A DNA stretch of 64,000 bases from Planctomycetota bacterium. Lineage in GTDB: Bacteria; Planctomycetota; UBA1135; GCA-002748355. The stretch lies in the NCBI GenBank assembly GCA_020426005.1, contig JAGQQW010000004.1:1-64000 (forward strand), given 5' to 3'. This document shows positions 52,363 through 64,000 of the stretch, in pieces. The number at the start of each line of letters is the position of its first letter. Within the stretch, counting starts at the first letter, position 1. The translations under genes and the position numbers were made by a program. The notes beneath the pieces were generated by a model. The model was not told the origin of the DNA. It did no database searches and saw nothing but the letters and a program-made list of their open reading frames with translations.

Positions 52363-53394
52363 TCAGAGCGTCAGCTCCAGACCGTTGCTGAGCTGCAGCC
52401 CCAAAGGTGCGGCGGCATCGAGCACGAGCGCTTGCGTCGTGAAGACGGTTCCGTGGAGCGCCTTGTCATTGGGCAGAGGAAACGGCGTTGCCCACTGACC
52501 GAACGAGTTGGTCGCAAACGGGAACGAGAATGTCGTCGCCGTGAGGTCGAGGTAGATCGTGCAGTTGGGGCCGATCGAGAGCGACGTGGCTGCGCCTAGG
52601 CTGAGGAGGAGCGCGCTTGGAGCGACCTTCGGTGCCGCGGCGAGGCTGAAGCTGAACGCCTTCCCCATGACCGGTGCAGGCGAACTCAGCGTCGTCATGC
52701 CAGCACACGGCGTGCCGACGATCTTGGAGACAGCGACGCGGGTGATCTTGCAGTCGACGAGGGTCGAATCGCCGTTGTAGCGCTGGTTCTGGCCGAACCC
52801 CGCCTTGCACTCGATCGCTTGGCCGGTCGTCAGTGTGAAGACACCGCGGTACGTCTTCGCGAACCGCACATCCGTGGCGGTGCAGCCCGCAGGCCCGTCG
52901 TAGCCATTCAGCTCCGCCGAGAAGACCGCCTGACCTTGCACGACGACGCTGACATCGCTGTTCGTCGGCCATGAGAAGTCGAGCCCGCCGAACGCGGCCT
53001 CGACGAGGTAGCTGCCGTCCGCTGGCGCAGTGAAGCGCAAGACGGCATTCTCGCCGGCTTGTCCCGGGTGCAGGAACATCCGTTGCGCCGCCATGCGCGC
53101 AGACGTGCAGCAGTATGTCGTCGCAGCTTCGTTCTTCCCGACAGTCGGATACTGAGGGAACTGGTTCGACCACGCCTGCAAACTGCCACAGTGCGCCGCG
53201 CGATTCGCAAAGACGTTGATGGGAGCACCACGATTCAGCGACCAACCATAGGACCAGACACCGTTCGGGTTCTTCGTACTCGAGAACTCCGCGGTCGCAT
53301 CCCAGGTCTGCGCGGGCAGCACGTGCGCCAAGGTCGCGATGACAACGAGGGTTGCGGGGATCGAAAACAGAGTGGTGCGAAATCGCAGTTTCAT
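52363..53394 (-). CDS. Secreted protein with shared C-terminal module
   Basis: A 343-residue protein. ATG 53394 gives MKLRFRTTLFSIPATLVVIA with cleavage near HVLPAQ. The mature N-terminal part (about 30-215) is a beta-rich domain (TWDATAEFSSTKNPNGVWSY, DGSYLVEAAFGGLDFSW) that resembles carbohydrate-binding or ricin/CBM-like folds without a firm match. The C-terminal part from GTPCAGMTTLSSPAPVMGKA to FPLPNDKALHGTVFTTQALV and LSNGLELTL is the shared C-terminal module. It is on the same strand as the chemoreceptor downstream (127 bp gap). Ligand unknown. Confidence 0.8.
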   Translation of the reverse strand: MKLRFRTTLFSIPATLVVIATLAHVLPAQTWDATAEFSSTKNPNGVWSYGWSLNRGAPINVFANRAAHCGSLQAWSNQFPQYPTVGKNEAATTYCCTSARMAAQRMFLHPGQAGENAVLRFTAPADGSYLVEAAFGGLDFSWPTNSDVSVVVQGQAVFSAELNGYDGPAGCTATDVRFAKTYRGVFTLTTGQAIECKAGFGQNQRYNGDSTLVDCKITRVAVSKIVGTPCAGMTTLSSPAPVMGKAFSFSLAAAPKVAPSALLLSLGAATSLSIGPNCTIYLDLTATTFSFPFATNSFGQWATPFPLPNDKALHGTVFTTQALVLDAAAPLGLQLSNGLELTL

Positions 53395-53486
53395 GCGTGG
53401 CCTCGGTTGGTTGCGTCGACTCGGGCAGCAAGGTGCCGTCATGGTTCGCATGCGGAGTTTCCGCGCGTCCGGGGCCAGAAAAATCG

Positions 53487-53870
53487 TCAAGCGTCGTCGC
53501 GGACCCGATCTCCTTGCCCGGCGTCACCATCGCTTGCTTGGCTCCCGGGTCGTTCCGCACCGCAATGCCAACAAAGCTCGAATCCACCATCGACGGACTC
53601 GTCGCAGTTCGGACACGACCACGTCGGGCGCGTTGCATGGCCATCCGCGCGCTCGTGCTTCTCATAGCGCCGAATGATCTCCAACGCGCGCTCGTATTCC
53701 GTCGGATCGTGCACCCACACGACCGGCTGGACGGACAAGTCCACGGGACCGATGCCGGCCATCGCGGCGAGCGTCTCTCCGGTCACCTCGGCAGAGATGC
53801 CATCGGCTTCGAGAAGCGACTTGACGTGGTGCGCGATCATCGCGTTCTCGGCGAAATAGATTCGGGTCAT
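53487..53870 (-). CDS. DUF2007 domain protein with C-terminal zinc ribbon
   Basis: A 127-residue protein. ATG 53870 starts MTRIYFAENAMIAHHVKSLL, the standard DUF2007 (putative signal-transducing) opening, followed by an ADGISAEVTGETLAAMAG loop and VVWVHDPTEYERALEIIRR. The end carries a CPNC...CWHC zinc ribbon (SCPNCDESVDGGFELCWHCG). DUF2007 proteins are small alpha/beta domains of unknown, possibly PII-like, regulatory function. Cytoplasmic. It lies upstream of the secreted protein at 52363 and downstream of the Tat-type protein at 53917, all on the minus strand. Confidence 0.85.
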   Translation of the reverse strand: MTRIYFAENAMIAHHVKSLLEADGISAEVTGETLAAMAGIGPVDLSVQPVVWVHDPTEYERALEIIRRYEKHERADGHATRPTWSCPNCDESVDGGFELCWHCGAERPGSQASDGDAGQGDRVRDDA

Positions 53871-58755: not shown

Positions 58756-58911
58756 GGTCCCGATTCGAACACAGATGGCCTTGGAGGGACAGTCGAGGCC
58801 GCCTTGCGTCGTCGAAATCCGTCCTGAGTCGCCTCGCACTGGGCTGGACTGGCGATTTCACCCACTCGGAACATGACCGCGCTTTCCGGGCGCTGTTATG
58901 CTCCGCCGTCC

Positions 58912-59814
58912 ATGGCCGTCATCGACTACGACAAGTTTCGCGAAGCGGGACGCATCGCTGCTGCAGCTCGCGAACATGCCAAAGCCCTGATCACGCCCGG
59001 ACGCCTGATGCGCGAGGTCGTCGAAGCCTGCGAAGCGAAGATCTTCGAACTCGGCGGTGAGCTCGCGTTTCCGGCCCAGATCTCGAAGAACCACGTCGCG
59101 GCCCACTACTGCCCCCCGCCCGACGACACGACGATCATCGAGGATGGCGACATCCTCAAGCTCGACTGCGGCGTGCACGTCGACGGCTACGTCGCCGACA
59201 ACGCGGTCACGGTCGACCTGCGTGACGGACCCGACGGCGCGCTCGCGAGCGCATCGCGCATGGCGCTCGAGAACGTCATCGCGATGATCGGGCCGGGCGT
59301 CGCCGTTCGCGACATCGGCAAGACGATCCAGGACACGATCGAGAGCATGGGGCTCAAACCGGTGTTCAACCTCACCGGGCACGGAGTCGCGCGCTGGGTC
59401 ATCCACTGCGCCCCGTCGATCCCCAACTACGACGACCAGCGCAAGGGCACCATCAAGCCAGGCCAGGTCATCGCATGCGAGCCGTTCGCGAGCGACGGTC
59501 GCGGCTATATCGAAGAAGTCGGCGAGCCCGAGGTCTTCCAGCAGAGCCGGCCACTCAAGATGCGCGACAAGCTTCCGTCACGCATCGAAGAGGCACTCGA
59601 AGCGTTCCGTCGGTTGCCGTTCGCGCGTCGGGACCTGATGCGCTTCTTCGAGGACGAGAAGGAGTCGGAAGAGACGCTGCGCTTCTTGCGCAAGAAGCGC
59701 CTCCTCACCGAGTACCCGCCGCTCGCCGAGAAGAAGGGCACCCGCATCAGTCAGCACGAGCACACGATCCTCATCACCGAAACCGGCGCCGAGGTCACGA
59801 CCCTCAGCGCCTGA
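58912..59814 (+). CDS. map: Type II (archaeal-type) methionine aminopeptidase
   Basis: A 300-residue M24 enzyme that removes the initiator Met from new proteins. The start MAVIDYDKFREAGRIA matches family N-termini. Metal ligands: Asp85 (LKLDCGVHVDG), Asp96 (ADNAVT), His157 (NLTGHG), Glu190 (ACEPFASDGRG), Glu283 (QHEHTILITE); His65 (AAHY) is the substrate His. Between His157 and Glu190 and from 200 to 275 it carries the helical insertion of type II enzymes (RRLPFARRDLMRF). Bacteria normally use type I, so this resembles archaeal MetAP. Convergent with the dehydrogenase gene at 12 bp. Confidence 0.92.
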   Translation: MAVIDYDKFREAGRIAAAAREHAKALITPGRLMREVVEACEAKIFELGGELAFPAQISKNHVAAHYCPPPDDTTIIEDGDILKLDCGVHVDGYVADNAVTVDLRDGPDGALASASRMALENVIAMIGPGVAVRDIGKTIQDTIESMGLKPVFNLTGHGVARWVIHCAPSIPNYDDQRKGTIKPGQVIACEPFASDGRGYIEEVGEPEVFQQSRPLKMRDKLPSRIEEALEAFRRLPFARRDLMRFFEDEKESEETLRFLRKKRLLTEYPPLAEKKGTRISQHEHTILITETGAEVTTLSA

Positions 59815-59837
59815 TCACGAACGCGGTCAGTTCGTGA
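59815..59837. terminator. Perfect 8-bp hairpin between convergent genes
   Basis: TCACGAAC (59815-59822) pairs with GTTCGTGA (59830-59837) around a 7-nt loop. It fills the 12-bp gap between two convergent genes and includes the stop of the dehydrogenase gene. There is no T-run, so a bidirectional terminator is only a suggestion. Confidence 0.4.
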
Positions 59838-60891
59838 CGTGCTCGCGGCGCCCTTCGGCGAGGATCTCGAGCGCGCGGCGGTGTGCGGCTTCGGCCGTCG
59901 AGATGTGTTCGCGTTCGCTGAGTTCGAAGATCTCTTCGAGCGCATCGGGAATGCGACGGACGCGTTCGAGACTCTTGGCCTCGTCGTAGCCACCGGGCAT
60001 GAGCTCGACCGCGACGTTGATGATGCCACCTGCGTTGATGACGTAGTCGGGAGCGTAGAGGATGCCTCGCTGGCGCACGAGGTCGCCGTGTTCGAGCGTC
60101 GCGAGCTGGTTGTTGGCACAACCCGCGATGACTTTGCAGCGAAGGGCCGGAATCGTCTCGTCGTTGAGGATCGCACCGAGTGCGCACGGAGCGAGAACGT
60201 CGCAGTCGGCACTGAGCACGTCGTCGTCGTGCAAGATCTCGGCGTCGAGTTCCTTCGCGAGTTGCTCGGCGCGCTCGACGTTCATGTCGTAGATCGACAG
60301 GTGTGCACCGAGTTCGCGGAGTTCGCGAGCCATGATCGACCCGACTGCGCCAACGCCCTGCAGGACGATGTGCTTGCCGGAGACCGAGTCCCCGTCGAAC
60401 GCGCGTTCGACGCACTTCTGGATCCCCAGTACGCAACCGCGCGCGGTGTACGGGCTCGGGTTGCCCGACGAGCCGGACGCCCGCGACAGCCCGGTCACGT
60501 AGCGCGTCTCCTGACGCACGATCTCGAGGTCCTCGATCGACGTGTTGACGTCTTCGGCGGTGATGTAGAGCCCACCGAGGTGATCGATGAAGCGCCCCAT
60601 CGCGCGATAGAGCTTCTCGGACTTGATGGTCTTCGGATCGCCGATGATGACGCTCTTGCCACCGCCGAGCCCCGTATGCGCGATCGCAGATTTGAAGGTC
60701 ATTCCCTTCGAGAGCCGCAGGACGTCGGTGAGGGCCGCCTCCTCGCTCTTGTAGGGCCACATGCGCATGCCGCCCAGGGCCGGGCCGAGTGTCGTGTCGT
60801 GCACCGCGATCAACGCGTGGAGCTGGGACTCGGGATCTTTGGCAACGACTACCTTCTCGTAGTCGTCGATGGGCAACTCGCGGATTTCCAT
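59827..60891 (-). CDS. Leucine dehydrogenase-like Glu/Leu/Phe/Val dehydrogenase
   Basis: A 354-residue NAD-dependent amino-acid dehydrogenase. ATG 60891 (MEIRELPIDDYEKVVVAKD) is the usual start; a longer frame upstream is not conserved. The substrate site has LGPALGGMRMWPYKSEEAAL, Lys67 (FKSA) and catalytic Lys79 (LGGGKSVI). The Rossmann motif is GVGAVG (179-184). YITAEDVNTSIEDL and VINAGGIINVAVEL are typical of leucine dehydrogenases. It would deaminate branched-chain amino acids oxidatively; other branched or aromatic substrates remain possible. Convergent with the aminopeptidase gene and 218 bp after topA. Confidence 0.88.
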   Translation of the reverse strand: MEIRELPIDDYEKVVVAKDPESQLHALIAVHDTTLGPALGGMRMWPYKSEEAALTDVLRLSKGMTFKSAIAHTGLGGGKSVIIGDPKTIKSEKLYRAMGRFIDHLGGLYITAEDVNTSIEDLEIVRQETRYVTGLSRASGSSGNPSPYTARGCVLGIQKCVERAFDGDSVSGKHIVLQGVGAVGSIMARELRELGAHLSIYDMNVERAEQLAKELDAEILHDDDVLSADCDVLAPCALGAILNDETIPALRCKVIAGCANNQLATLEHGDLVRQRGILYAPDYVINAGGIINVAVELMPGGYDEAKSLERVRRIPDALEEIFELSEREHISTAEAAHRRALEILAEGRREHVTN

Positions 60892-61109
60892 GCGGAGGCG
60901 AAGTTCGTAAGGGTCACCCGGGGCGCGGCGCGGCCGCGACCGGTCGGAACACGCCCGCGCCAGAGGCCCGGACGATCGAGGGGCGGAGATTCTACGGAAG
61001 CGGTGCCAGCACGGGAAGCACGAGGCTGAGCTCGCCCCGGGGACACCATGCAAACACGCTCGCAGACGACACTTACGATTCCGTGAAGTCGACGAGCGGA
61101 GCCGTGATC

Positions 61110-63827
61110 TCAGGCGCTCGGCTTCTTCTTCGACGAGCCCGACTTCTTCTTCGCGGGGGCCTTCTTCTTGGCCGTCGTCTTCTTCGCCGTCGAGGACTTC
61201 GCCGAGGCCTTCGTACCGGCCTTCTTCGATGCCGCCTTCTTGGCCTTCTTCTTCTTTTTCTTCGGGCCTGCGGCCGCACGCGCGGCGATCAGTTCGAGCG
61301 CCAAGTCGAGCGTGACTTCGTCGACGCTCGTGCCACGAGGAAGCGACGCGTGCGTCGTGCCGTCGGTCACGTACGGGCCGAAGCGCCCTTCGAGCAGCTT
61401 GATCTCGTCGCCGCTCTCGGGGTGCTTGCCACAAACCTTGAGCGGCTCGCGACGAGCCGCCGTGCGTCCGCGACGCTGTTTGGGTTGCGCCAGCAACTTC
61501 AACGCCTCGTCGAGGGTCACCCTCAGCGGTGAGAGTTCGGCGGGAAGCGAACGCGTCTCTTTTTCGGCGTAGACGTACGGGCCGTAGCGACCATTGTTGG
61601 CGAAGACGTCCGCGTCGGTGCCCGGCTGCTTCCCGAGGAGTCGCGGAAGCGACAGGAGCCCGAGCGCTTCGTCGAGCGTGATCGTCTCGATCTCCATGCC
61701 GGCGAGGAGCGACGCCATCTTGGGCTTGTCCTCACCTTCGATCATGTCGCCGAGTTGCACGTACGGGCCGAAGCGACCGGTCTTGGCGTACACAGGGAGC
61801 CCGCTGTCCGGCTCGTTACCGATCACGCGCGGCCCCGCCTCCGCCTTCTGCAGCAGGTCGATCGCTTTCTCGAGCGTGAGTTCATCGGGCGCGATGTCGT
61901 CGGCGATCGAGGCACGCACGTCCCCCATCGACAAGAACGGCCCGTACCGCCCGACACGCACCTCGACGATCGTCCCGTCGTGCTCGCCGAGCGTGATACC
62001 GCAGACTTCTCGCGGATCGATCTTCTCGACGACCGAGGCGAGCTTCGAACGCAGGCCGAGGCTGCCGTTCCCGTTGTAGAAGCGCTCGAGGTAGTCCTTG
62101 TTGTCGATCTCGCCGAGCGAGATCTTGTCGAGGTCGTCCTCCATCGAGGCCGTGAAGCCGTAGTCGACGAGATCGGTGAGCCAGCCCTCCATCAGCTTCG
62201 TGACCGCGAACGCGGTCCACGTCGGACAGAGCGCGTTGCCGAGCTTGCGGACGTATTCGCGCCGCAGGATGGTCTCGATGATCGACGCGTAGGTACTCGG
62301 ACGACCGATGCCGCGCGCTTCGAGTTCGCGCACGAGACTGGCTTCGGTGAGGCGCGCCGGTGGCTGCGTGGTGTGGTCCTTCGCGTCGAGCCCGAGCAAC
62401 TTCAAGGCATCTCCAGGACGCATCTTGGGCAACCGCTTCTCGGCTTCGTCACCGCTGTCTGCAGCGGCGTGACGATCGTAGGCCGCGAGGAACCCGGGGA
62501 ACTCGATCACCTTGCCCCCCACCTGGAACGTCGCGTCATCGACTTGGATCTCGACGCTCACGCGGGTTCCCTTCGCGTCCTTCATCTGGCTCGCGACGGT
62601 GCGGCGCCAGATCAGGTCGTAGAGGCGGCCGGCATCGGTGCCGAGCGACTTCGCCACGACGTCGGTATCGGTGAACCCCTGAGCGCCCGCAGGCCGGATC
62701 GCCTCGTGCGCCTCTTGGGCGTTCTTGACCTTGCTCTTGTAGGAACGCGGCGCGTCGGGAAGCGAATCCTTGCCGAAGCGCTGCGAGATCACCTCGCGAG
62801 CGTTGCGCAACGCTTCTTCGCTCAGCGTCGTCGAATCGGTTCGCATGTAGGTGATGAAGCCGTTCTCGTACAGCCGTTGCGCGAGGTCCATCGTTCGCCG
62901 CGCGCTGTAGCGCAACCGACGGTTGGCCTCCTGCTGGAGGGTCGACGTCGTGAACGGCGCCTGCGGACGCTCGGTGAACGGCTTCTCCTCGACCGAAGCG
63001 ACGCTTGGCTCGGCGTTCTCGATGCGTGCGAGCAGATCGCGCGCGGCCTTCTCATCGAGGAGAACAGGCGCCTGACCGTCGACCTCCTTGAGCTTGCCGG
63101 TCGTCGGTTCGAAGTCCTTCCCGGTCGCGATGCGACGCCCAGAGACCTTGGTCAGCGTCGCGTCGAAGGGCTTCGCGTCCGGATCTTGCGGCGCCGAGAA
63201 CGACCCGACGAGATCCCAGAACGTCGCCTTGCGGAACGCCATCCGCGCGCGCTCACGTTCGACGATCAGGCGCACCGCGACGCTCTGCACGCGTCCGGCC
63301 GACAGGCGCGGTTTCACCTTCTTCCACAGGAGCGGCGACACCTCGTAGCCATAGAGCCGGTCGAGGATGCGCCGCGTCTCCTGCGCACGCACGAGGTCCT
63401 CGTCGATGTCCCGCACCGCGTCGAGCGCATCGTGGATCGCCTTCTTCGTGATCTCGTGGAAGACGAGCCGCTTGTACGGAACGTTCGGCCGCAACACCTC
63501 CTTGAGGTGCCACGAAATGGACTCCCCTTCGCGGTCCTCGTCGGTCGCGAGGTAGAGGCTGTCGCTGTCGGCGAGCAGGGCTTTGAGCTTCTTGATCTGG
63601 TCCTTCTTGCTCGAAGGCACGACATAGAGCGGCTCGAAGTCGTTCTCGATGTTGACGCCGAGACGTGCCCAGGGCTCCTTCTTGTACTTCGCGGGGATCT
63701 CGGAGGCCGACTCGGGCAGATCCCGGATGTGTCCAATGCTCGCTTCGACGTGATAGCCGTCACCCAGGAAGCGCGCGAGCGTGCGCGCCTTGGCGGGTGA
63801 TTCGACGATGACCAGGGCTTTGGGCAT
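61110..63827 (-). CDS. topA: DNA topoisomerase I, type IA
   Basis: A 905-residue topoisomerase that relaxes negative supercoils. ATG 63827 starts MPKALVIVESPAKARTLARF. The Toprim domain holds Glu9 and the DxDxE triad (ATDEDREGE, 96-100). The cleavage domain has the active Tyr327 in FITYMRTDST, with RLSAGRVQSVAVRLI before it. From about residue 590 there are four or five C-terminal repeats of Toprim_Crpt type (GRYGPFLSMGD, GRFGPYVQLGD, NGRYGPYVYAE, GRFGPYVTDGT) instead of the four-Cys zinc fingers of E. coli TopA. The last ~52 residues are a Lys/Ala-rich, histone-H1-like tail. No Cys4 zinc motif was seen. Essential core gene; alone on the minus strand. Confidence 0.97.
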   Translation of the reverse strand: MPKALVIVESPAKARTLARFLGDGYHVEASIGHIRDLPESASEIPAKYKKEPWARLGVNIENDFEPLYVVPSSKKDQIKKLKALLADSDSLYLATDEDREGESISWHLKEVLRPNVPYKRLVFHEITKKAIHDALDAVRDIDEDLVRAQETRRILDRLYGYEVSPLLWKKVKPRLSAGRVQSVAVRLIVERERARMAFRKATFWDLVGSFSAPQDPDAKPFDATLTKVSGRRIATGKDFEPTTGKLKEVDGQAPVLLDEKAARDLLARIENAEPSVASVEEKPFTERPQAPFTTSTLQQEANRRLRYSARRTMDLAQRLYENGFITYMRTDSTTLSEEALRNAREVISQRFGKDSLPDAPRSYKSKVKNAQEAHEAIRPAGAQGFTDTDVVAKSLGTDAGRLYDLIWRRTVASQMKDAKGTRVSVEIQVDDATFQVGGKVIEFPGFLAAYDRHAAADSGDEAEKRLPKMRPGDALKLLGLDAKDHTTQPPARLTEASLVRELEARGIGRPSTYASIIETILRREYVRKLGNALCPTWTAFAVTKLMEGWLTDLVDYGFTASMEDDLDKISLGEIDNKDYLERFYNGNGSLGLRSKLASVVEKIDPREVCGITLGEHDGTIVEVRVGRYGPFLSMGDVRASIADDIAPDELTLEKAIDLLQKAEAGPRVIGNEPDSGLPVYAKTGRFGPYVQLGDMIEGEDKPKMASLLAGMEIETITLDEALGLLSLPRLLGKQPGTDADVFANNGRYGPYVYAEKETRSLPAELSPLRVTLDEALKLLAQPKQRRGRTAARREPLKVCGKHPESGDEIKLLEGRFGPYVTDGTTHASLPRGTSVDEVTLDLALELIAARAAAGPKKKKKKAKKAASKKAGTKASAKSSTAKKTTAKKKAPAKKKSGSSKKKPSA

Positions 63828-64000
63828 GTGTGCGACGACAGGAGGGTTCTCGATAGGCGCGGCGTCTCCGGGCGACCCGCATCGGGTCACGCCGGGGAGC
63901 GAAGGCGGCCGATGGTAGGAAGGAGCGTCGCGCGATTGCAAGGCAGCGTCGCCGGACACCCCTCGCGAACTTCAGGGCACCGAACCGCGATCCCCTCGTC

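Follow-up and report, generated by a model that had tools for sequence, protein, structure and literature searches.

The window, the whole 64,000-nucleotide stretch of Planctomycetota DNA analyzed here, carries on its plus strand a gene for a type II methionine aminopeptidase (MetAP). The gene and the features mapped onto it are listed below, with residues numbered in the window protein and the corresponding P. furiosus residues in brackets.

58912..59814, plus strand: type II MetAP gene, 300 aa, stop included (TIGR00501 score, PDB match, model)
59077..59079, plus strand: Gln56 (Asn53), a signature residue of planctomycetal type II sequences (Q in 51/51)
59104..59106, plus strand: His65 (His62), by alignment; H in 51/51 planctomycetal type II sequences
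59164..59166, plus strand: metal ligand Asp85 (D82), by alignment to P. furiosus, invariant
59197..59199, plus strand: metal ligand Asp96 (D93), by alignment to P. furiosus, invariant
59380..59382, plus strand: metal ligand His157 (H153), by alignment to P. furiosus, invariant
59404..59406, plus strand: His165 (H161), by alignment; H in 51/51 planctomycetal type II sequences
59479..59481, plus strand: metal ligand Glu190 (E187), by alignment to P. furiosus; E in 51/51
59578..59694, plus strand: helices within the type II insertion (residues 223-232, 239-246 and 249-261; AlphaFold2, pLDDT ~95)
59758..59760, plus strand: metal ligand Glu283 (E280), by alignment to P. furiosus; E in 51/51

The reading frame starts with the ATG at 58912 and its stop codon ends at 59814. 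An in-frame ATG further upstream, at 58873, would give a protein of 313 aa. In the closest relative, L037 (89% identical), the residues preceding 58912 are not conserved and similarity begins exactly at MAVIDYDK, which supports the start at 58912. The third-position GC content of the MetAP gene (0.864) is near that of topA (0.855), indicating that the frame is coding. The open reading frame put forward in the preliminary description is thus real and correctly bounded.

Profile searches assign the window protein to the type II family. It scores 286 bits (E=4e-85) against TIGR00501, the NCBI equivalog model for type II MetAP, whose curated cut-off is 222.65 bits. Against the type I model, TIGR00500, it reaches 122.7 bits, under the cut-off of 171.35 bits; this score and the presence of the type II insertion place it outside type I. 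The EBP1/PA2G4 model TIGR00495 returns 97 bits versus a cut-off of 430, so that membership in this family does not hold either. An identity as M24B prolidase or Xaa-Pro aminopeptidase was ruled out by the scores against the PepQ and Xaa-Pro aminopeptidase models (just 18-24 bits) and by the missing AMP_N domain, PF00557 being the only Pfam domain in the protein. Among solved proteins, P. furiosus MetAP is nearest (193 bits), followed by eukaryotic MetAP2 (~120 bits) and bacterial type I enzymes (at most 91 bits). In the phylogeny of both MetAP types, the window protein sits with type II, and type I is separated at 100/100 (99 by SH-aLRT in a larger tree). We conclude that the window gene encodes a genuine type II MetAP, an ordinary member of its type by every test run. 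The preliminary description had read it as an archaeal-type MetAP II, to be checked by a phylogeny of the two types and to be abandoned if the protein grouped with type I or with M24 prolidase-like proteins; tree and profile scores bear that reading out. NCBI's database models would already call these proteins type II, and as far as we found they have gone unremarked in the open-access literature.

The five metal ligands and the two active-site histidines correspond one-to-one with those of P. furiosus MetAP and are invariant across 51 planctomycetal sequences. The fourth and fifth ligands are 92 residues apart both here and in P. furiosus, compared to 30 in E. coli type I, which amounts to an insertion of about 62 residues. 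An AlphaFold2 model of the window protein (pLDDT 93.6, pTM 0.91) retains this insertion as helices. All ligands and the insertion recognized earlier in the letters of the gene are therefore confirmed. The best structural match of the model is P. furiosus MetAP (TM 0.90-0.93; 0.91 for 1xgs), human MetAP2 gives a TMq (TM score normalized by the query) of 0.87, and E. coli type I lies behind both at 0.72.

These comparisons define how the protein relates to known M24-fold proteins. It resembles P. furiosus MetAP (type IIa, 1xgs/1wkm) in length, in fold, in the lack of an N-terminal extension, in all ligands and in an insertion of equal size, at about 36% identity, but its host is a bacterium with the genes for a formylated initiator Met, and Gln56 replaces Asn53. 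Position 56 is Q in all 51 planctomycetal type II sequences, where 99% of the 76 sequences from Asgard have N, and this position varies between solved P. furiosus chains, with Gly in 6lvh and Asn in 1wkm. The active site and insertion are likewise shared with eukaryotic MetAP2 (human 1b6a, Chaetomium 8onx; TMq ~0.87, 30-31% identity). Eukaryotic MetAP2 is extended at its N terminus and occurs alongside MetAP1 (PMC10724148), whereas the window protein has neither such an extension nor a type I partner. E. coli Map (type I, TIGR00500) has the same pita-bread core, the same five ligands and presumably the same job downstream of deformylase, but not the insertion between ligands 4 and 5. Finally, the ribosome-associated proteins EBP1/PA2G4 and Arx1 share fold and insertion (TMq 0.81-0.86); unlike them, the window protein keeps every catalytic residue.

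The window belongs to a Planctomycetota MAG of 6.0 Mb in 634 contigs, estimated to be 67% complete with 3.3% contamination. Its placement in this phylum follows from L038 and L039, whose named contigs coincide with contigs of genomes in the window's family. Three M24 genes were found in it, the MetAP gene and two genes for AMP_N-bearing, aminopeptidase-P-like proteins. The search for a type I gene that the preliminary description had proposed returned none above cut-off. Since the assembly is only 67% complete, this absence proves little by itself, and relatives were therefore surveyed. Convergent to the MetAP gene lie genes for a Glu/Leu/Phe/Val dehydrogenase (59827-61434) and for DNA topoisomerase I, topA (61110-63959). 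The order topA - dehydrogenase - MetAP is kept in the nearest relative, L037, and not in L038 or L039, and no conserved MetAP gene neighborhood was found beyond L037. Proximity to core genes had been offered as a sign of a housekeeping role; as the neighborhood is conserved only in the window and L037, this argument is weak and adjacency is poor evidence for such a role.

The survey covered 392 Planctomycetota genomes, scored with the TIGR00501 and TIGR00500 cut-offs. Type II MetAP was found over cut-off in 51 of them, namely 40 of the 41 members of the window's order, all four genomes of family f24, all six of family f44, and a single genome of family f32, G052. The 41st member of the order, G268, has a type II fragment that scores 220 bits, below cut-off. 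Type I passes its cut-off in 321 of the 392 genomes, and in none of the 41 order members or the ten f24 and f44 genomes; the only carrier of type II with a type I gene above cut-off is G052. The remaining genomes, many of them incomplete, pass neither cut-off. The pattern of the two types across the phylum is thus almost perfectly complementary. The type II genomes are mostly MAGs at 84-95% completeness, and with some 50 genomes at roughly this level, chance loss of type I from all of them is not credible. Assemblies of one and two contigs (G387 and G155) agree, having type II without type I. In type II genomes the best TIGR00500 match is the type II gene itself, and the next best matches, at ~50-81 bits, lie in long open frames. 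The housekeeping role proposed in the preliminary description is very likely.

Elsewhere in the phylum, the best type I matches of families f7 and f87 (e.g. L051) score no better than close to the cut-off (E between about 1e-50 and 1e-60), with G095 reaching 185 bits inside a long open frame; they form a diverged type I group. None of ten bacterial controls scored over the type II cut-off, and the 4 of 14 controls that passed are the four archaea. No full-length type II copy was found on plasmids or phages, where no match spans more than 62% of the query and the annotated ones among those listed are type I or plain MetAP; nor was type II MetAP found in viral contigs. An origin from a mobile element was rejected on these grounds.

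In other Planctomycetota, the type I gene usually occupies the slot between adk and infA of the secY-adk-map-infA block, and the window gene lies outside that slot. An adk-map-infA block has been described for Aquificae too (PMC3879981). Among the 18 type II genomes examined, map is missing from the usual slot (secY-adk-[map]-infA) in every one: 14 have secY-adk-infA(-rpmJ-rpsM), and the other four (three of f24 and G387) have secY-infA or secY-rpmJ and lack both adk and map. The arrangement secY-adk-mapI was found in seven of ten other genomes (G052, G072, G027, G248, G381, G013 and G062). Thus, map-I is absent from its customary position, and map-II is located elsewhere. The slot is also empty in the type I genomes G061 and G025, and so we regard it as supporting evidence only. 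Absence of adk and/or map from the secY-infA interval was seen in G061 (L166), G025 (L172) and f24 genomes (L179, L185 and L186); as type I genomes are among those with gaps, the interval has undergone more than one rearrangement within the phylum.

The relationships of the carriers were examined in a SecY tree of 28 genomes, 18 of them type II; the assembly of the window genome contains no SecY, and two other genomes of its family stand in for it there. The 18 type II genomes all fall into one clade with support of 97/96. In the type II protein tree, families f2, f4, f24 and f44 each form a clade, and the copy of G052 is nested inside f3. G052 is the sole surveyed genome with both types, its type I gene being in the operon slot, and its type II copy, by its position in the tree, is a later and recent transfer within the phylum, into a genome that retained type I. 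The preliminary description had spoken of an ancient transfer, and the acquisition is indeed old; the type II tree runs along family lines. Planctomycetal type II sequences are split from archaeal and eukaryotic ones at 97/91, and their branch lies outside all sampled archaeal sequences; the sampling comprised Asgard (59 genomes searched), P. furiosus and one eukaryote. The label archaeal stands as to enzyme type and does not extend to an exact donor lineage. Monophyly of the planctomycetal type II sequences against the long type I outgroup received 42/3 (91 by SH-aLRT alone, in a larger tree), and because of the 42/3 support for the attachment of this outgroup we do not claim a rooted order. 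In most of the 59 Asgard genomes there are at least two type II MetAP genes; L091, L093, L094, L095 and L098 have two or three, some in tandem (e.g. G431:C17 and G423:C18).

We consider it highly probable that MetAP-I was replaced once, long ago, by an archaeal-type MetAP-II that is now the lineage's sole MetAP. An archaeal contig binned by mistake into a bacterial MAG might have been suspected from the 634 contigs, the 67% completeness and the 3.3% contamination of the window MAG. However, the contig bears a bacterial-type topA whose third-position GC the MetAP gene matches, the independent assembly L037 has the same gene order, and the type II gene occurs in 41 of 41 sampled order members, the one- and two-contig assemblies G387 and G155 included. 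This distribution across the clade refutes contamination, to which we assign next to no probability. It is also improbable that the type II enzyme is an accessory or specialized aminopeptidase and that housekeeping is done by a diverged type I MetAP missed by TIGR00500. The low-scoring type I matches of f7 and f87 show that type I can diverge, but TIGR00500 picks out the type II gene itself as its top match in type II genomes, the two next best matches in the window genome carry AMP_N, and the map slot is empty in 18 of 18 genomes. Moreover, the whole clade has type II, as would be expected of an essential gene.

Whether the gene was acquired once is a further matter. Several independent acquisitions, by the order, f24 and f44, would be compatible with the weak monophyly against the outgroup, and G052 shows that MetAP-II has moved laterally inside the phylum. 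We nevertheless find this scenario unlikely, if somewhat less so than a hidden type I enzyme, given the single SecY clade of type II genomes, a gene tree that keeps families as clades and splits them from the sampled archaeal sequences, and a Gln56 common to all 51 sequences. With similarly low confidence, we can imagine that the planctomycetal enzymes are a deep third type II branch, outside all sampled archaeal and eukaryotic ones, which descends from an archaeal lineage that is extinct or belongs to the stem, or even represents what is left of an ancient bacterial type II enzyme, and which adapted to the bacterial ribosome and deformylase, Gln56 marking a changed pocket chemistry.

For the single replacement that we favor, the following course can be proposed. 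The ancestor of one large clade, comprising the window's order, f24 and f44, would have acquired an archaeal-type MetAP-II, probably by transfer from archaea. The ancestral MetAP-I gene would then have been lost, leaving the position between adk and infA empty, and MetAP-II would have been inherited vertically within the clade thereafter. Of 52 type II genomes, 49 have peptide deformylase and 48 have Met-tRNA formyltransferase (fmt) above cut-off, showing that the lineage keeps the bacterial formyl cycle; the incomplete window genome has deformylase, while its best fmt match is partial and below cut-off. MetAP requires a free amino terminus, which suggests that deformylase acts before the type II enzyme. 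Since formyltransferase and deformylase are retained, MetAP-II would have to work on chains already deblocked by deformylase, and as a presumed dinuclear-metal M24 aminopeptidase it would cleave off the initiator Met ahead of a small second residue. We know of no coupling to deformylase for archaeal and cytosolic eukaryotic type II enzymes. We infer that the enzyme is catalytically active and essential in the clade.

Recent papers assign type I to bacteria and type II to archaea (PMC11078913; PMC10724148), and state that neither bacteria nor yeast survive the deletion of all their MetAP genes (PMC10724148). The introduction of PMC1266368 swaps the assignment of the two types to bacteria and archaea. 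A search of the open-access literature yielded no account of a bacterial type II MetAP. The unexpected part is the bacterial host and the exclusivity, not the enzyme itself. The textbook rule of type I alone in bacteria does not hold for a large group of Planctomycetota, and across a whole clade an essential step of protein maturation appears to have been taken over by the other MetAP type; the old gene has disappeared from its slot in a conserved operon, and the formylation cycle of bacteria has been retained. This makes it possible to ask whether a type II enzyme is able to operate alongside a bacterial ribosome and deformylase, and to test the sensitivity of the clade to fumagillin-type MetAP2 inhibitors; the MetAP2 histidine that reacts with these inhibitors presumably corresponds to the conserved His65.

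Two other genes of the window deserve mention. The DNA topoisomerase I has four Toprim_C_rpt repeats and a Lys/Ala-rich tail, and positions 52363-53490 encode a putative secreted protein whose C-terminal part resembles that of other proteins in genomes of this kind (compare L020, 3456-3866).
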